DNA of 26,146 nucleotides from a virus (IMGVR_UViG_3300032048_000013:1-26146), one strand, 5' to 3'. Counted from the first letter of the stretch, positions 14,129-21,462 are shown. The notes: generated by a model not told the origin, from the sequence alone. Program-made: numbers and translations.

Positions 14129-15436
14129 ATGGCCATAACACCCGGATCTAGATTTACTTCGTTGATCAACTGGTCAACCAGTTTGGATTCGTTCAGTCGC
14201 GTCCAGTTTAATGACGCCTTTTCTCAGTTGGATTCTAAGGCTGCGGGATGGACGGAAAGCAACAGTGCTGCGTCTGGTGAACTTAGCGGATATTTCCATT
14301 ACAACACGGCTGATACCACTTTGAAGGTTCAAGTCGGAGGGCCGGGTGGTGCATGGGTTTTGGTGAATGATGGCGATGAGATGCGGGCGTCCACGATTGA
14401 CGCCAAGGGCGATCTTCTTGGCGGAACAGCGGATAATACTGTAGGAAGACTTGCTGTAGGCACCAACAATCAAGCACTTGTTGCTAATTCCTCCGCTGGA
14501 ACCGGACTGGCGTGGGCGAGCATCGTTAACAGTCTTACTGGAACGGCCAATGAGGTTGAAGTAGACGCTTCAACCGGGAGTATTACCATTGGCCTTCCCA
14601 GTGCTGTAACAATTGGCACTCTAACTATCGACAGTGTCGCGATTTCTACAGTTCAAACAGGTTCAGAATCGTTTGTTGATAATGACACTTCGGTGATGAC
14701 ATCTGCTGCGGTTCAGGACAAGATCCTCGCGTATGCGTATGCAACAGCCGCAGGAACTATTCCCATTTCACTTATCGACGCCAAAGGCGATCTCCTTGTT
14801 GGGAGTGCGGATGACACCGCCGTCAAGGTCGGGGTTGGTGCTGATGGTCGGGTTTTGTCGGCTGATGCTTCTCAGGCGTCAGGCATGGTATGGAATACAA
14901 CGGTTTCATCTCTGACGGGTACGGCTGCTCAGATTTCGGTGTCGGCATCTTCGGGTGCTATCGCTATTGGTCTTCCGAACGATGTGACGATTGCTGGAAC
15001 ACTCACTGTGGACAGCGTGGGGATTGCTGCGGTTCAAACCTCCGCTGAATCCTTTGCGGACAACAACACTTCGATCATGACTTCTGGGGCTATCGCAGAC
15101 AAGATCGAAGATTATGGTTACGTCACTTCTGCTGCTGCTATTTCTTCGGTTACCGGTACCGCAAATGAGGTGGAGGCATTCACTAGTTTGGGAGCAGTCA
15201 CGGTCGGTCTTCCCAATGATGTGACAATCACTGGAACTCTGACTGTGGACAGTGTTGGGATCTCCAATGTGGATTCCGGATCAAGTTTTACAGATAACGA
15301 CGTTTCGCTTATGACTTCAGGGGCAATTAAGGACAAGATTGAGAATTATGGTTATGCGAGTGTTGCCCAGTTGAACGCGTTCCAAACTACTATTGACGAT
15401 GTAGAAACACAGTTCTACATGGAGGTTATGGTCTAA
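14129..15436 (+). CDS. Tail fibre protein built from repeated modules
   Basis: This 435-residue low-complexity beta-rich protein is typical of trimeric fibre shafts. The N-terminus (1-80) looks like an attachment domain. Two kinds of module then alternate. Module A (~46 residues, IDAKGDLLGGTADNTVGRLA then VGTNNQALVANSS) occurs near 14394 and again near 14776. Module B (~75 residues, SLTGTANEVEVDASTGSITI then GTLTIDSV and SVMTSAAVQDKI) occurs three times, at about 14530, 14908 and 15148. Module A recurs in the last gene of the window. The C-terminus ends in a coiled-coil-like stretch (QLNAFQTTIDDVETQFYMEV) without a recognised receptor-binding tip, so the next genes may supply it. It overlaps the next gene by 1 base (TAATG). 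Confidence 0.8.
   Translation: MAITPGSRFTSLINWSTSLDSFSRVQFNDAFSQLDSKAAGWTESNSAASGELSGYFHYNTADTTLKVQVGGPGGAWVLVNDGDEMRASTIDAKGDLLGGTADNTVGRLAVGTNNQALVANSSAGTGLAWASIVNSLTGTANEVEVDASTGSITIGLPSAVTIGTLTIDSVAISTVQTGSESFVDNDTSVMTSAAVQDKILAYAYATAAGTIPISLIDAKGDLLVGSADDTAVKVGVGADGRVLSADASQASGMVWNTTVSSLTGTAAQISVSASSGAIAIGLPNDVTIAGTLTVDSVGIAAVQTSAESFADNNTSIMTSGAIADKIEDYGYVTSAAAISSVTGTANEVEAFTSLGAVTVGLPNDVTITGTLTVDSVGISNVDSGSSFTDNDVSLMTSGAIKDKIENYGYASVAQLNAFQTTIDDVETQFYMEVMV
14530..15365 (+). repeat. Three tandem-related copies of a ~225-base fibre module (module B)
   Basis: Copies start near 14530, 14908 and 15148. All encode a TGTA segment, then IGLP or VGLP, then GTLT(I/V)DSV, then a DN(D/N)xSxMTSxAxxDKI stretch and a tyrosine-rich end. 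The third repeats the second closely at protein level. One copy of module A separates the first from the second. Repetition suggests that fibre length changes by duplication and deletion. Confidence 0.75.
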
Positions 15437-15768
15437 TGGCAATGACTCATACGAAACTACATGCGCCTACACAGTTGGGAACGTCGCCTTCGACGTTGTA
15501 TACCGTGCCAGCGTCTACTACGACAATTGTGAAGCAGATCGCTTTATGTAATACCGCTGCTGCCAATAGGACTGTTTCTGTTTATCTAGTTCCTAGTGGC
15601 GGATCTGCTAGTGCTACTAATGCAGTTCTTTATGATGTAAGTGTTGATTCAAAGTCAACAACTTTTGTCAACTTGTCGGCTGTCATGGCGACTGGTGATT
15701 TTATTCAGGCTTCTGCGTCGGTCGTTAGTTCGGTTTCGATTCATTCATTTGGCATTCAGGAGGCGTAA
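15436..15768 (+). CDS. Small beta-sandwich fibre-associated protein
   Basis: This 110-residue protein has an almost entirely beta pattern with many Thr, Ser, Ala and Val. The segment STLYTVPASTTTIVKQIALC followed by NTAAANRTVSVYLVPSGG is a pattern I recognise from small accessory proteins in phage fibre clusters. The role of those proteins is usually unknown; they may decorate or cap a fibre. No signal peptide or membrane segment is seen. It overlaps both neighbours by a single base, so all three are probably translated in a coupled way. Confidence 0.6.
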   Translation: MAMTHTKLHAPTQLGTSPSTLYTVPASTTTIVKQIALCNTAAANRTVSVYLVPSGGSASATNAVLYDVSVDSKSTTFVNLSAVMATGDFIQASASVVSSVSIHSFGIQEA

Positions 15769-16427
15769 TGGCTGGGCGGCTTGTCCGAATAGGCGCTCCT
15801 GACGCTTTAGCGGATTTCTATGATTCGCCATCACACATCTTCGGGAGTGGAGAAGACGGCGTTGTTACCATCAGCGCGAACACAACTCTGACTGAAGATA
15901 AGTATTATCTTGATTTGACGGTTGATGCCACGAAAACTTTGAATACTGCGGGTTATCGGGTGTTTGTTCAACGCAATTTGTTCCTGTGGGGAACAATCGG
16001 GATGACAGCCGGACCTAGTTCTCAAGGATCCTTGGGGATCGGAACACAAAATACGAATGCAACCAATTCGTTGGGTGGTGCTTCTGCTTCTTACACGGTG
16101 ACTGCCCCTACCGCTGCTTTGGGTGGAACGAAGTGGTACAAGAATCCTTTGAATGTTGTTGATGGTTATTCGTTTGATCCCAGTAATGGCACTATCAATC
16201 TTCTCAAGGGTGGAGCAGGAGATGGAACAAATTATGGCGGTGGTGTGGTAATCGTTACTGCTCGTTATCTTTTCGGAGATGGAAACATTTCGGCAGCAGC
16301 ATCTGGAAATGCGGGTGGCGGTGTGATGTTCTTAATTTCCTCAGATAAAAGCCATTCGTACACGCTGAGTGCGGCTGGTTCAGGAACTGGATCAGCGGGG
16401 AATACTTATTTCTTAGAGGCTGACTGA
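15768..16427 (+). CDS. Glycine-rich fibre/adhesin protein, short paralogue
   Basis: This 219-residue protein begins with a beta domain (~25-85: FGSGEDGVVTISANTTLTED, then YYLDLTVDATKTLNTAGYRV) that matches the start of the next protein almost position by position. The C-terminal half is glycine-rich with a GGGVVIVTARYLFGDGNISA pattern, a style common in phage fibre tips and gp38-like adhesins, where poly-glycine II helices may form. A short loop (SGNA) sits where the neighbouring paralogue carries its 250-residue His-rich insert. It probably contributes to receptor binding. Both ends overlap their neighbours by 1 base. Confidence 0.65.
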   Translation: MAGRLVRIGAPDALADFYDSPSHIFGSGEDGVVTISANTTLTEDKYYLDLTVDATKTLNTAGYRVFVQRNLFLWGTIGMTAGPSSQGSLGIGTQNTNATNSLGGASASYTVTAPTAALGGTKWYKNPLNVVDGYSFDPSNGTINLLKGGAGDGTNYGGGVVIVTARYLFGDGNISAAASGNAGGGVMFLISSDKSHSYTLSAAGSGTGSAGNTYFLEAD

Positions 16428-18154
16428 TGGCTGATCCGAAATATGATCAGGGTGTCCGCCGAGAAAAGGACTTACTTCCTTATGTAGTTGAAATGCTGCC
16501 TGAGGACGAGTTTGGCGACCTTCAATTCGATGGGGAACTGGTTTTTGGAAGCGGCGAAGACGGTGATGTAACGGTCACCACGAATACCAATCTTTCTGGG
16601 GATATGTATTACAACAATCTCACTGTAAATAGTGGAGTGGTTCTAAATCCGAACGGTTGGAGAGTATTCGTAAAAAACACTTTGAACTTGACGGGCGACT
16701 TGGGGATCAAAGACACAGTTACAAGTGTCGGCACTGGTTCTTTGGAGGGAACCGTAGCCGTTGGGGAGAGTGTCACGGACGGTTTGGGCGGCGCTGGCGA
16801 ACCCGACGACTTTGAGTCTTCGGGGTACACTTTTAGCGGCTCTGGGGCCGTGAACACTTCGGTTGGTGTAGCAGCCAATGATTTTTATGATTTGCGTGAT
16901 GCTATTAACGCTTATAAGCAGCGTGGAACAGACTTTTTTCGTGCGAAGGGTGGTGCTGGTGGGGGTACCGGAGCGGATGGAGTTTCAGGAGCCGGGGTAG
17001 CCGGATCGTGGCCTCCGAGTGCGAACACAGTCGGCGTACCGGGGGGGAAGGGTTCTTCGGGGACTGGTGGCGCTGGGGGAACGGGTGGCCGTGGTGGTGC
17101 CGTAGTTATGGTTTCTGCCCGTCAGATCACTGGTTCAGGTGGTTTGTATTGCGAGGGTGGAACGTCAACTGATGGTGCTGCTGGAACAAGTGGAACGCCC
17201 GCTCCGACGTACACCGACCCGGCGTATAACCATGCTAATCCGGGTCATGGCAATCCGCCTGTCCAAAACCATCACCACACCAGTGGTCACGCGTCAGAAC
17301 AGAATCATCACGGGGTTCAAAACCATCACGGCACACCCCCGACGGCAGAACAGAATCATCACGGGGTTCAAAACCATCACGGCACACCCCCGACGGCAGT
17401 TCAAAACCATCACGGGGTTCAAAACCATCACGGCACAGATCCAACGCCGGGAACGGCCAGCCCGGACCCGACATCGAACCCTGATGCGTCATCGCATCAT
17501 CATGACAGCACATCCGGTACAAATCCTGATACGCCAGTGACGAATCCTCCTGTGCATGTCACGATTCCGGGTAGCGAAAATCCGGGTCACCATAATTTCC
17601 AACCGTTTCCGCATCACAACCCCGGAAACCACAACCCGACAAACCATATGGTGCAACCGGGCAGTCATCATCACAACCCCGGAAACCCGTACACGAACCA
17701 TCATGTGGTTACGAACCATCACGGAACGCCCCCCACGAATTATCCCCCAAATCCACCCGTTGCGAATCCTGATGCATCAGATCATCATAATGCAGCGGCA
17801 CAAAATCATCACACTAACCCTGATGCATCAGATCATCATCACGATTCGGAACAAAATCATCACACGAATCCTGATGCATCAGATCATCATCACGCCCCCA
17901 TGACAAACCATCACATCACACATCATCTCACTCCGGATACTCATGGAACGCCTCCCACTCCTCCGGGTACGGGCCATCAGGCGGCGATTGATTATCCCGG
18001 TGGGGCGGGTGGAACTGGCTATCAGGGGCAGCGAGGCGGTCGCGGTGGAGGCGGTGTTTTGATTGTGGTCACCAGAAATGCTGGTACACCGAGTTATTCT
18101 ATTAACACAGGAGTAAATGGCAGCAGCATTGCCCTTGACACTGCCAACATTTAA
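16427..18154 (+). CDS. Glycine-rich adhesin with a large histidine-rich repeat domain
   Basis: This 575-residue protein has an N-terminal domain (~35-95: FGSGEDGDVTVTTNTNLSGD) shared with the preceding gene. A glycine-rich region follows (~180-260, GGAGGTGGRGGAVVMVSARQ). Between H269 and H517 lie about 53 histidines in 249 residues, mostly as NHH, DHH or HHH. Part of this is arranged as two arrays of 17-residue repeats (EQNHHGVQNHHGTPPTA and NPDASDHHHDSEQNHHT). A second glycine-rich block (~525-550, GGAGGTGYQGQRGGRGGGG) and a beta end close the protein. The His clusters almost certainly bind transition metal ions. T4 gp37 shows that HxH sites in a fibre tip can hold iron, but the fold here is different and unknown. 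The enzyme cassette begins at the base after its stop codon. Confidence 0.75.
   Translation: MADPKYDQGVRREKDLLPYVVEMLPEDEFGDLQFDGELVFGSGEDGDVTVTTNTNLSGDMYYNNLTVNSGVVLNPNGWRVFVKNTLNLTGDLGIKDTVTSVGTGSLEGTVAVGESVTDGLGGAGEPDDFESSGYTFSGSGAVNTSVGVAANDFYDLRDAINAYKQRGTDFFRAKGGAGGGTGADGVSGAGVAGSWPPSANTVGVPGGKGSSGTGGAGGTGGRGGAVVMVSARQITGSGGLYCEGGTSTDGAAGTSGTPAPTYTDPAYNHANPGHGNPPVQNHHHTSGHASEQNHHGVQNHHGTPPTAEQNHHGVQNHHGTPPTAVQNHHGVQNHHGTDPTPGTASPDPTSNPDASSHHHDSTSGTNPDTPVTNPPVHVTIPGSENPGHHNFQPFPHHNPGNHNPTNHMVQPGSHHHNPGNPYTNHHVVTNHHGTPPTNYPPNPPVANPDASDHHNAAAQNHHTNPDASDHHHDSEQNHHTNPDASDHHHAPMTNHHITHHLTPDTHGTPPTPPGTGHQAAIDYPGGAGGTGYQGQRGGRGGGGVLIVVTRNAGTPSYSINTGVNGSSIALDTANI
17295..17447 (+). repeat. 51-base tandem repeat array 1 (three units) encoding His repeats
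   Basis: Units start at 17295, 17346 and 17397, a spacing of exactly 51 bases or 17 codons. Units 1 and 2 are nearly identical in DNA over their whole length. Unit 3 differs at its first codons and its end. The protein unit is EQNHHGVQNHHGTPPTA. The near-identity at silent positions indicates recent duplication. Confidence 0.9.
17765..17917 (+). repeat. 51-base tandem repeat array 2 (three units) encoding His repeats
   Basis: Units start at 17765, 17816 and 17867, again exactly 51 bases apart. The protein unit is NPDASDHHHDSEQNHHT; the third unit is degenerate in its second half. An older, diverged copy of the NPDAS-HHH part lies near 17478. The array has a different sequence from array 1 but the same 17-residue period. 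Confidence 0.88.
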
Positions 18155-18625
18155 ATGAAGACATATTATTACGTTCCTACAGACGAGGAAATAGAGCCGC
18201 ATGTTGCTGAGGCAACAATGTGGGGCATACCGATTGTTCATGGGATACCGGACAAAATCCTTAAAGAACATCCTGATATCACTCCGTCTAAGGCTGAGAT
18301 ATTCAAAGTTCCGGAAATAACCGGTGTAGCGCTGGCTGATAGTGAAATCAATGTGGGTAGCCATCAGGCCGTGATATGGACGAATGAGTTTTTAGATTTA
18401 CGAGGAAAGACTACTATTTCTGTTTTTAATGCTCGTAAGAAAGAAATGGCTCACGAAGATTTGATTCCGGTGTGGTGTGAAAAACATCGGGCACGTTGGG
18501 TGTTTCCTATTTTGAATATTGGAAAGTACGAAGTGTCGCTTCTACATGATGGAGAGGAACTAGCAACGGCGTTATTTTTTGCGTTCAAACGAAAAGCGGC
18601 ATTTCAGGACGGAAACAAAAAGTGA
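18155..18625 (+). CDS. Unknown protein, first gene of the oxygenase/halogenase cassette
   Basis: This 156-residue protein matches no family I recognise. The first ~45 residues (YYYVPTDEEIEPHVAEATMW and GIPDKILKEHPDITPSKAEI) look like a small alpha/beta or adaptor region. The rest is strand-rich with a possible immunoglobulin-like sandwich (GKTTISVFNARKKEMAHEDL, RWVFPILNIGKYEVSLLHDG). No signal peptide, membrane segment or metal motif is visible. The ATG follows the TAA of the His-rich adhesin gene with no gap, and its own TGA overlaps the ATG of the first oxygenase (TGATG). This ties it to both, so it could be a fibre-associated protein, an enzyme partner or a substrate carrier. Confidence 0.6.
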   Translation: MKTYYYVPTDEEIEPHVAEATMWGIPIVHGIPDKILKEHPDITPSKAEIFKVPEITGVALADSEINVGSHQAVIWTNEFLDLRGKTTISVFNARKKEMAHEDLIPVWCEKHRARWVFPILNIGKYEVSLLHDGEELATALFFAFKRKAAFQDGNKK

Positions 18626-19404
18626 TGGAAATACTTTTTCCCGGTATTGGATTGTGGCGTGATGCATTTGAGATTTCAGATGGGTATGCCGATGTTCTTT
18701 GGAAAAATCGGTATGAGATAGAACGCGGGGAATCTTGGGTTGATGATCGGGAAGGACATCGTCACAACTATGAAATAACTGGCCCGATTCGTATCAGGAA
18801 CTTTCCTGAAGATGGATTGGCGGACAGCGAAGATGATAAATATGTTTTCATGCTTCAGGGTGTGATGATGAAATGCTTGTTGGAGTACATGAAGGAGTAC
18901 CCGACCAGTTTTCAGGATATCCAATGGCAGGAGGCACATAGGCTTCTCTATTATTTTCCCGGTGCCAACATGGGTACTCATTCCGACAACACGCCCGGAG
19001 AGCATTTTACCGGTCCTAATCGAACAGGGAAATCGTATAGAGATCTTGTTGCTCCTCAAAGAATTCTATGTGCCCTCCAATTCATGAGTGATTGGGTACC
19101 GGATGACGAACCGGAAGGAGATAGTTTTACCGGAGGGGAAGTTTCGTGGCCGTATGTGGGAGCGACACACGAACCTCAAAAGGGGGATGTTCTCATCTAT
19201 CCGGCAAATTTCATTTATTCTCATAATGTCAGCCCCGTTTTGGCAGGGCACCGAATAGTAAATTTGACTTGCTTCTGTCAGGGGGATATTCCTGATTTTT
19301 CTTCGCATTATGGAATTGAACACCCAATGAATATTTTCCCCGGAAGTAATATGTATTTAGATCTTAATCACGATGAAATTAAGTGGGTGAAACATGCCAG
19401 TTGA
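18625..19404 (+). CDS. 2-oxoglutarate/Fe(II)-dependent oxygenase (prolyl hydroxylase-like), first copy
   Basis: This 259-residue enzyme carries the full iron and co-substrate site of the family. H119-S-D121 in GTHSDN and H200 in YSHNVSP bind Fe(II), and R210, ten residues after the distal His, should bind 2-oxoglutarate. The supporting strand FTGGEVSWP and the PQKGDVLIYPANF turn are typical of prolyl 4-hydroxylase-like enzymes. It should hydroxylate a substrate with O2 and release CO2 and succinate; the substrate cannot be read from the sequence. A ~20-residue stretch after the HxD (HFTGPNRTGKSYRD) is longer than in the compact second copy. ATG 18625 (TGATG overlap) is preferred over GTG 18622. 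It overlaps the second oxygenase gene by 11 bases. Confidence 0.85.
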   Translation: MEILFPGIGLWRDAFEISDGYADVLWKNRYEIERGESWVDDREGHRHNYEITGPIRIRNFPEDGLADSEDDKYVFMLQGVMMKCLLEYMKEYPTSFQDIQWQEAHRLLYYFPGANMGTHSDNTPGEHFTGPNRTGKSYRDLVAPQRILCALQFMSDWVPDDEPEGDSFTGGEVSWPYVGATHEPQKGDVLIYPANFIYSHNVSPVLAGHRIVNLTCFCQGDIPDFSSHYGIEHPMNIFPGSNMYLDLNHDEIKWVKHAS

Positions 19405-19981
19405 AAATCCCGCACCGGGTGTACTGATCCATGAAGGGTGGTACTCCGATGCTGACAAATTACTAGATGAAACACTAAAGGCCGCAGAGTTGGAGTATTC
19501 GGTTACTGCATGGAAGCGATCCATAACAGGCACTCCCGGTAACCATCAGCAAACTGATTACAGAAGCAGCGTGGAAAGCAGCATCAGTGAGGTTTGGGGA
19601 TACAACGATAAAGATTTCATACCCCTAGCAGAAGAACTCAAAAAGTTTAGTAGGGAACTCAATGAAAAAGTAAACAATTTCAGATCTGTTTATGATCTTC
19701 ATCTAAGAAAGGATGAAGGTTTTACGGTCATCCGCTATCAAAACAAAGCGGAATACCACTTCCACCATGACCATGCGGAACAAAATCAGAGAGCCTTAAG
19801 TATGGTGTTTTTCCTTAACGACAACTTCGATGGCGGCGAATTGGAATTTCCCTACTTCGATATAAAGATCACCCCATCGGCAGGAACGTTAGTCTTGTTT
19901 CCTTCCAATTTCCCTTTCGGGCACATCGCCCACCCGGTAGAGGGTGGAACTAAATATTCGCTGGTTACTTGGTATTCGTGA
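19394..19981 (+). CDS. 2-oxoglutarate/Fe(II)-dependent oxygenase (prolyl hydroxylase-like), second copy
   Basis: This compact 195-residue enzyme is of the 2OG-FeII_Oxy_3 type. Iron ligands are H124 and D126 in FHHDHAE and H177 in FGHIAHPV. K187, ten residues further on, should bind 2-oxoglutarate. The core strand MVFFLNDNFDGGELEFPYFD and the GTLVLFPSNFPFGHIAHPVE segment are textbook for prolyl 4-hydroxylase alpha-like domains. A basic N-terminal half (KRSITGTPGNHQQTDYRSS) resembles the family's substrate-side region. It differs strongly from the first copy, so the pair did not arise by a recent duplication and may act on different substrates or positions. The start overlaps the first oxygenase, and the stop lies 2 bases before the halogenase ATG. 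Confidence 0.9.
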   Translation: MPVENPAPGVLIHEGWYSDADKLLDETLKAAELEYSVTAWKRSITGTPGNHQQTDYRSSVESSISEVWGYNDKDFIPLAEELKKFSRELNEKVNNFRSVYDLHLRKDEGFTVIRYQNKAEYHFHHDHAEQNQRALSMVFFLNDNFDGGELEFPYFDIKITPSAGTLVLFPSNFPFGHIAHPVEGGTKYSLVTWYS

Positions 19982-19983
19982 AC

Positions 19984-21462
19984 ATGATTAAAAAAATTGG
20001 AATTGTCGGAGGAGGGAATGCAGGACTAATCAGCGCGCTCATTCTACGTTCTGCTTTCCCAGAACATGAGATAGTGGTTGTCAAGTCTGACATGATCGGA
20101 ACCATAGGGGTGGGGGAAGGCTCCACGGAACATTGGTTGGGATTTATGAATTTCTGTGGGATAGAACCCGCAGAAATGATTGTTGCAGCATTGGCTACCC
20201 ATAAAAAGGGTATTCGTTTTGAAGGATGGACCGATCACACTCCTGACTATTTTCATGTGACTTCTGGATTACCTGATTTTGTTCCGCGGATGTTTGGTTT
20301 CAACGGAGCGTATGCTGGATTTTTGTCTAAAGAATGGTTGTTGACTGAACACACCTGTCATAAAGGATTGTTGGAAAATAAGGTTCCAGCGGATAATCCT
20401 CATAGGAGTGTCAATCAGTTTCATTTTGATACTGAAGAGTTGAATGATTTTCTTAGGATGAAGGTAAGTAATCGAAATATCAAAATCATAGATGGAGAGG
20501 TTCAGAGGGTTGTTGTAAAAGACGATTGGATTGTCAGTGTGGAACTGGATGATCCAACGGCGTCAGCGGATAGGACGATCAGGGCAGACTTTTGGATAGA
20601 TGCCTCTGGTTTCAACAAGGTTTTGATTTCACATCTCTCTAAACAAACGTGGAACTCGTTCGGTGAGTATCTGTTAACGGATTCCGCGATTGCTTTCCGA
20701 ACACCTTCGGATGAAAGTGGAGAGTTGAGGCCATACACCCGTGCGAGGGCATTGGATAGTGGTTGGGCGTGGGAAATCCCGACTCAGGCAGAACGAGGCA
20801 ATGGATATGTTTACTCTTCTTCATTTTGCACAGAAGAAGAAGCGGTTGCCGAAATGGAAGAATTGTTGGATGTCCAAATATCGGATCACCGACATTTCCA
20901 ATTCGATCCGGGGCATTTGGAAGAGCCGTGGGTTGGCAATTGTGTAGCAGTCGGTTTGGCCGGATCTTTTGTAGAACCATTAGAAGCGACTTCCATTGGG
21001 TCTACGATTACTCAGGCAAAGTCTCTAATCGGCTATCTTGCATCTTTTCAAAAGGGCAATGAATGGATTCCGAAAGAATACAACCGACAGTTCAATGGGA
21101 TGATGGCCAATATTCTTGACATGATTCGATTGCACTACGTCAGTGATCGAACCGATACTCCGTTTTGGTCTGCCTTACAGGATATGCCTATTCCGGAAAG
21201 TTTGGAACGACTATTGGGCCTTTGGTCGGAACGTCCGCCACAACAGATGGACTTCAGTCATGGAGAATTGGCGATGTTTGGTTTACCGCATTTTTATCAT
21301 GTGGGACAAGGTCAAGGTGTTTTGAACCCTGATTCAGCCTTTAGGGCGATACAGGCGTTTGTTTGGGAAGATTCGGTTGAGGATGCTATATGGAAAATAC
21401 GAGAAAACCAATCCGCTCACCCAATCATGGATCATCATGAGGCGCTTGAAAACCTTCAGTAA
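19984..21462 (+). CDS. Flavin-dependent tryptophan-halogenase-like enzyme
   Basis: This 492-residue enzyme shows all the key sites of the family. The FAD-binding GxGxxG is G9-G11-G14 in IGIVGGGNAG, and IGVGEGSTEHW follows. K74 in THKKGIRF matches the lysine that carries hypohalous acid (K79 in PrnA). W261-A-W263-E-I-P is the WxWxIP motif that separates halogenases from monooxygenases. E334 in EPLEATSI corresponds to the catalytic glutamate of PrnA. It needs reduced flavin from a reductase, which is not in this window. Substrate may be free tryptophan, another indole or phenol, or a peptide. Cyanophage Syn10 VirX1 is a characterised viral member that prefers iodide. ATG 19984 is preferred; GTG 19978, overlapping the upstream stop, is also possible. 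It overlaps the next gene by 26 bases. Confidence 0.9.
   Translation: MIKKIGIVGGGNAGLISALILRSAFPEHEIVVVKSDMIGTIGVGEGSTEHWLGFMNFCGIEPAEMIVAALATHKKGIRFEGWTDHTPDYFHVTSGLPDFVPRMFGFNGAYAGFLSKEWLLTEHTCHKGLLENKVPADNPHRSVNQFHFDTEELNDFLRMKVSNRNIKIIDGEVQRVVVKDDWIVSVELDDPTASADRTIRADFWIDASGFNKVLISHLSKQTWNSFGEYLLTDSAIAFRTPSDESGELRPYTRARALDSGWAWEIPTQAERGNGYVYSSSFCTEEEAVAEMEELLDVQISDHRHFQFDPGHLEEPWVGNCVAVGLAGSFVEPLEATSIGSTITQAKSLIGYLASFQKGNEWIPKEYNRQFNGMMANILDMIRLHYVSDRTDTPFWSALQDMPIPESLERLLGLWSERPPQQMDFSHGELAMFGLPHFYHVGQGQGVLNPDSAFRAIQAFVWEDSVEDAIWKIRENQSAHPIMDHHEALENLQ

Follow-up and report, generated by a model that had tools for sequence, protein, structure and literature searches.

A probable phage tail adhesin with a selected histidine-rich insert, linked to a 2OG-Fe(II) oxygenase and a flavin halogenase in a possible tailoring cassette

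What does a protein segment in which one residue in five is histidine do for a virus, and does it matter that predicted Fe(II) enzymes are encoded just beyond it? The question is raised by a 26,146-nt stretch of viral DNA (the window, meaning here the whole stretch that was analysed), in which an earlier note had pointed to a phage tail adhesin with ~53 histidines in 249 residues (~21%) and had proposed a multi-metal domain. The adhesin gene, its parts and its immediate upstream neighbour are these:

15768..16427, + strand: short scaffold paralogue lacking the insert, 219 aa, immediately upstream of the adhesin
16427..18154, + strand: probable glycine-rich tail adhesin with a His-rich insert (P0001), 575 aa
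16541..16711, + strand: conserved N-terminal beta domain, residues 39-95, from family alignments, AF2 and hhalign
16940..17194, + strand: glycine-rich block 1, residues ~172-256, of the Gly-X-Y type, with a confident AF2 model
17231..17977, + strand: hypervariable insert with 53 His, residues 269-517
17295..17437, + strand: tandem repeat 1, 51-bp unit, 2.8 copies, 95%, QNHHGVQNHHGTPPTAE
17763..17895, + strand: tandem repeat 2, 51-bp unit, 2.6 copies, 86%, NPDASDHHH..QNHHT
17993..18070, + strand: glycine-rich block 2, residues ~523-548, YPGGAGG..RGGRGGGGVLIVV, conserved among relatives

The count holds: 53 histidines are found in residues 269-517 (249 aa, 21.3%), where 4.2 would be expected (P ~1e-41) at the frequency of the remaining window proteins (7,182 aa, 1.67% His), and all of the histidines of the adhesin fall inside this span. 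They are grouped as 15 HH, 5 HHH and 8 single residues, and the NHH (12), DHH (3) and HHH (5) clusters do lie between two glycine-rich blocks, as had been described. Trp, Lys and Arg are absent from the insert, and Tyr occurs twice. The scaffold around it (the N-terminal 270 and the C-terminal 55 residues) is conserved, with the motif GxGxDGxVTI..DMYYNNLT..VFVKNTL in the N-terminal beta domain, and is modelled confidently by AF2 on either side of the insert (pLDDT ~90 or more for the N-terminal beta domain, up to 97 for glycine-rich block 2), while pLDDT is below 50 over nearly all of residues 273-512; in a prediction for the relative L042 (28 aligned rows) the insert again falls below 50. In the upstream paralogue at 15768-16427 the scaffold is otherwise alike and the insert site is empty. 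With this empty site and the split in AF2 confidence, the His-rich segment is seen to be a long stretch inserted into a single loop of a glycine-rich adhesin scaffold. The insert is hypervariable, its length shifting by 51-bp repeats: the adhesin of a near-identical phage (L004) is 17 aa shorter, which is one repeat unit. Further upstream, positions 14129-15436 encode a tail-fibre-like protein with ~3 internal repeats (SLTGTANEVEV...SFADNDTSIMTSGAI.DKI.NYGY). Scans of the 26,146-nt window for tRNAs and Rfam families found nothing.

As to the nature of the scaffold, relatives were collected from IMG/VR (14 loci from the first query, 50 from the first alignment, and 281 candidates from a wider alignment, 76 of them kept as distinct). 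The family phrog_13336, which holds a 'putative adhesin' of Hafunaviridae, is matched by 22 of 33 family members. The window adhesin matches it at E 2.9e-5 in the N-terminal domain (GxGxxGxVTI...NLT..SG) with only residues 40-113 of 575 aligned, and because of this limited span we file the protein as a related adhesin that shares one domain with phrog_13336, not as a member. By hhalign, the N-terminal domain is recognized in the adhesin of HRTV-15 (97%, E 1.4e-11), itself a match to phrog_13336 over its full length. Comparative genomics and plating have identified the Hafunaviridae adhesins (HRTV-15, HF2, HJTV-1; phrog_13336) as determinants of host range (PMC8651126). Like the window protein, they possess the N-terminal domain, a glycine-rich body, hypervariable segments and adjoining tail fibre genes; unlike it, they come from archaeal viruses, and their loops are Asn/Gly-rich with 0-4 His. 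Neither a PF13640 oxygenase nor a PF04820 halogenase was found in the three Hafunaviridae genomes searched (HRTV-15, HF2 and HJTV-1).

Another resemblance is to the gp38 adhesins of T-even phages, S16 and PP01 (a beta-helix, a polyglycine-II sandwich and hypervariable loops), in which glycine-rich motifs flank hypervariable receptor loops (PMC12892980). This layout is shared in sequence. The solved gp38 structures give no sequence match (an hmmsearch of the family alignment against PDB sequences had no gp38 among its matches up to E 1), and one ~250-aa His-rich insert stands where gp38 has short loops. When the AF2 scaffold was searched against PDB folds, the only match given was 5ke1_B, the passenger domain of IcsA (VIA Z 5.8), which was of no use, and gp38 was not among the matches listed. 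Structural matches in BFVD were collagen-like proteins and were dismissed for poor superposition; the collagen Pfam is matched by 9 of 33 relatives. Against isolated phages, the whole adhesin gave no tblastn match, and the N-terminal domain alone gave matches in haloarchaeal viruses only. Overall, the earlier assignment to a phage tail is supported by the scaffold domain held in common with Hafunaviridae adhesins, by the neighbouring tail genes and by the hypervariability of the insert. The protein is probably a tail adhesin of the glycine-rich, gp38-like type, from an aquatic phage that has not been cultured. Its location at the tail tip is one that we infer, since the family is without an experimentally characterised protein and isolated bacterial phages yielded no member.

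Are the histidines themselves of consequence? Among relatives with the same scaffold their number per insert ranges from 0 to 65, and other insert types are Tyr/Asn-rich (L045, L057 and L103) or Cys-rich (L076). It could be argued that the His run is a by-product of low complexity, in which 51-bp repeats rich in CAT and CAC slipped neutrally and the histidines have no role; tandem repeats of this unit are indeed present in the insert, and a one-unit length difference separates the near-identical phages. However, many relatives possess a His-rich insert built on other repeats or on none, and drift predicts that His would be replaced as often as Asn, Asp, Tyr or Gln. Within alignable inserts (12 disjoint pairs), His was replaced in 69 of 625 cases (11%), versus 18-43% for Asn, Asp, Tyr and Gln, with a Mantel-Haenszel odds ratio of 0.31 (0.32 with a neutral scoring scheme), and 172 silent CAT/CAC changes were counted at His codons. 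As His is replaced least and its codons have so often changed silently, the insert histidines are under purifying selection; the same two observations rule against neutral slippage as their origin, which we regard as highly improbable. The earlier note had considered that homologues might replace the histidines freely: this is so for whole inserts, which are swapped entire, but not inside alignable inserts. Even if the link to the enzymes discussed below is merely genetic, the family shows a host-recognition loop in which selection favours a high content of histidine rather than one set sequence. Divergent adhesins at L133 (6675-8009) and L160 (6657-8516) carry (Q/R)(S/D)NHHHT-type repeats along with Cys, resembling the QNHHGT repeats of the window protein. 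By eye, a DUF1566/Lcl_C-like module (GGxIFxTPST...DWFLPS..EL) apparently sits on the adhesin N-terminus at L031 (3494-5500) and L037 (4659-6770), and inside the adhesin C-terminus at L160 (6657-8516).

What might be selected for in these histidines? One precedent is the T4 gp37 iron needle, and with it R22Y gp12, in which conserved, spaced HxH motifs occur in a trimeric fibre (PMC11705849), the systems of the Ferrojan or Trojan horse proposals; the earlier note had compared the insert with such iron sites. These proteins and the window protein have in common His in a phage host-recognition protein, but the window histidines come as NHH, DHH and HHH in an unmodelled loop, and HxH (with a non-His residue between) occurs 0 times in residues 269-517, against 8.8 in shuffles. 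The analogy with T4 fails because this motif is missing, and the HxH reading is rejected for the window protein. In a broader metal hypothesis, Zn, Cu, Ni or Fe would be bound by the side chains of His, joined by those of Cys in some relatives, which would cross-link or rigidify the loop or bait metal-uptake receptors, with the neighbouring enzymes unrelated to the histidines. It would fit the enrichment of His and the purifying selection on it, the excess of HH pairs (25 against 11.1 in shuffles, 2.3x), the presence of Cys alongside His in 22 of the 62 distinct inserts that have a linked halogenase (CC and HHH both occur in L190 and L246, for instance), the swap to a Cys-rich insert in L076, and the frequency of HxH above chance in relatives L052, L056 and L044. 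It fits less well with the lack of gp37-type HxH in the window protein, with the swing in His count between relatives sharing a scaffold, or with an insert left unmodelled by AF2 for both the window protein and L042. We consider metal binding by the insert possible, but as an explanation of the locus somewhat doubtful, and it may coexist with the enzymatic modification proposed below. A chemical analogy may be drawn with the His/Pro-rich region of histidine-rich glycoprotein, an unrelated eukaryotic plasma protein with flexible His/Pro/Gly-rich metal-binding segments.

The second part of the question concerns the genes that follow the adhesin, which overlap or abut in this order:

18155..18625, + strand: 156-aa ORF, a cassette member in some relatives, with no PHROG match
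18622..19404, + strand: predicted 2OG-Fe(II) oxygenase 1, 260 aa, HxD...H...R present
19394..19981, + strand: predicted 2OG-Fe(II) oxygenase 2, prolyl-4-hydroxylase-like, 195 aa, HxD...H...K present
19969..21462, + strand: predicted flavin-dependent 'tryptophan' halogenase, 497 aa, GxGxxG, K79 and WxWxIP present

The adhesin had been placed directly upstream of two Fe(II) enzymes; two 2OG-Fe(II) oxygenases do follow, but the 156-aa ORF (18155-18625) lies between. Oxygenase 2 matches PF13640 (E 1.2e-16), retains the HxD...H triad and the 2OG-binding Lys (HxxxPVxxGxK), and has bacterial prolyl 4-hydroxylases as its best PDB matches (E 2.7e-6), and is predicted to be a prolyl-4-hydroxylase-like 2OG-Fe(II) enzyme. 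The halogenase motifs are located at G14/G16/G19, K79 and W266-A-W268-E-I270-P271, and their G, K, W, I and P positions are invariant across 8 relatives.

A PF13640 oxygenase is found 0.4-3.7 kb downstream of the adhesin (mostly ~970 bp), on the same strand, in all 35 contigs of the first set with readable downstream sequence, and likewise at every locus of the second set where the downstream sequence is readable; three bacterial MAG contigs (L074-L076) also carry the linked oxygenase. In contigs of at least 40 kb, the density of PF13640 genes is 0.29/kb downstream of the adhesin versus 0.008/kb elsewhere (~34-fold), a linkage for which the uniform-placement P is nominal only, the contigs being related, and in 12 of the 21 contigs of this size the linked oxygenase is the sole PF13640 gene. 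Other window genes are mostly undetectable in more distant relatives, in which the cassette is retained, so the cassette stays together as the genes around it turn over. Chance, one of the two explanations that had been offered for the Fe(II)-enzyme neighbours, does not account for a linkage so strongly conserved. As to the other, a shared iron theme, the oxygenase is also present next to adhesins with 0-2 His; a His-specific oxygenase link is rejected, and the linkage goes with the scaffold of the adhesin, not with histidines that would bind metal.

The halogenase presents a different pattern. A PF04820 gene was detected in 34 of the 46 records searched, those without it being records that end near the adhesin, the His-poor L045, L057, L058 and L061, the L076 contig and the Hafunaviridae. 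A reverse search starting from the halogenase kept 80 loci, 72 of which had enough upstream sequence; a scaffold adhesin is encoded at most 5 kb upstream at 67 of these (64 His-rich, 3 with fewer His) and at 5 there is none, and the linkage holds at halogenase identities down to 44%. At L190, L237, L241 and L249-L251 the adhesin and the halogenase stay linked where the oxygenase has moved or gone. At L230-L233 an oxygenase and a halogenase occur together without a scaffold adhesin within 5 kb.

Two clades can be recognized: clade A, with the short paralogue followed by the long His-rich adhesin and a halogenase, and clade B, in which the order is reversed (long, then short), the adhesins have 0-13 His and the halogenase is lacking. 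In L098-L142, of clade B, the inserts are rich in Tyr and Asn and contain tandem repeats, for example NNAPTYTYTAG or NYSYPG. The His count has exceptions in both clades (L013 and L075 of clade A, with 8-9 His and a halogenase; L109-L142 of clade B, with 10-13 His and none), and halogenase presence tracks clade more than His count. A strict rule by which His would entail a halogenase is weakened by these clade B members and by the small number of contrasts: in the scaffold tree, low His coincides with lack of a halogenase in no more than two independent events, which agree with expectation in direction but are too few for significance, so the correlation between His and halogenase is suggestive, not proven. 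L076 (870-2630) encodes the window scaffold with an insert of 24 Cys and 4 His; it belongs to the same lineage and has the same flanking genes as the window, with the halogenase, the 156-aa ORF and o21359 cleanly missing. Across the 62 distinct inserts with a linked halogenase, the sole abundant ring residue found in all is His (8-64, median 39.5), Trp is missing from 18, and Tyr is scarce but never zero. Trp as a halogenation target within the insert is rejected on these data, the window insert having none either, and since His and Tyr are present in all 62, possible targets inside the insert would be His or Tyr.

We propose, with a probability of roughly 0.4, that the adhesin, the downstream oxygenase (in all clades) and the halogenase (in clade A) form a tail-adhesin tailoring cassette, with which the phage would modify its adhesin before assembly. 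The conserved beta and Gly-X-Y scaffold would display one long, flexible His/Asn/Pro/Gly-rich loop, acting as the fast-evolving receptor-contact segment at the tail tip, with His as its selected functional residue, and the adhesin would be the head gene of the conserved cassette. The prolyl-4-hydroxylase-like oxygenase would hydroxylate Pro/Asn-type residues of the scaffold and loops ahead of assembly, the flavin halogenase of the His-rich clade would halogenate imidazole or phenol rings of the loop, and both modifications would tune the contact of the adhesin with the host surface. The oxygenase, which occurs in every clade, would more likely act on the Gly-X-Y/Pro/Asn scaffold, and the halogenase, which is restricted to clade A, on the ring residues of the loop. 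Against tailoring, the linkage could be inherited hitchhiking; the clade dependence of the halogenase, the L230-L233 loci, which are exceptions to the cassette, and the usual separation of halogenase and adhesin in cultured cyanophages also speak against it.

It has also to be considered that the oxygenases and the halogenase have an auxiliary role, acting on host metabolites or the host surface during infection, and that their genes are merely located in the host-recognition region, the His loop being an ordinary receptor-binding loop selected for receptor chemistry. Marine phages do keep auxiliary genes in this region, many of them within host-recognition clusters (PMC7029224), phage 2OG oxygenases are usually interpreted as auxiliary genes (PMC9602691), and cultured cyanophages carry both enzymes away from adhesins. 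Against such an arrangement stand single-copy adjacency across deep divergence while other neighbours turn over, the recovery of the adhesin at 67 of 72 loci when searching from the halogenase, and an adhesin-halogenase link that survives loss or relocation of the oxygenase, and we consider it unlikely. The tailoring reading can be taken further, to a dedicated pathway that would produce a tail tip with hydroxylated and halogenated (possibly halo-histidine) side chains and would make the adhesin the natural substrate of a widespread viral halogenase group; in this extended form we hold it to be quite doubtful.

While the glycine-rich, gp38-like type of adhesin is already known, neither the selected His insert and the adhesin-oxygenase-halogenase cassette, nor any His-rich phage adhesin of the window type, nor a phage halogenase or 2OG oxygenase linked to tail adhesins was found described in the literature searched, whose coverage excludes preprints and most subscription papers. 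Aquatic phages commonly encode halogenases and 2OG oxygenases. According to a paper on one oxygenase-rich cyanophage, what such enzymes do for the virus had not been the subject of specific study (PMC9602691). The conserved genetic link to a host-recognition protein provides a concrete candidate substrate; if tailoring occurs, phages would add chemical diversity to that which sequence variation gives their receptor-binding proteins.

Comparison can be made with VirX1, the flavin-dependent halogenase of cyanophage Syn10, for which aromatic and heterocyclic test substrates are listed in a review (PMC8407142). Both are viral flavin-dependent halogenases, but the window group is nearly always linked to a His-rich adhesin, a comparison made with VirX1 by description only. 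In cultured phages, a halogenase beside a His-rich, glycine-rich protein was not found, and the halogenases of cultured cyanophages mostly have no adhesin adjoining them, which counts against a universal rule. In one cultured cyanophage, Synechococcus phage S-SRM01 (L092, 8010-10591), a flavin halogenase immediately precedes a protein annotated as 'gp37-gp38 adhesin tip complex', which has a glycine-rich body with a Cys/Trp-rich loop and no detectable homology to the window adhesin family. Another layout is that of Actinomycetia phage DSL-LC01 (L097, 4088-9557), with a halogenase two genes downstream of two collagen-repeat genes. By analogy, each of these two layouts may be taken as a single supporting case.
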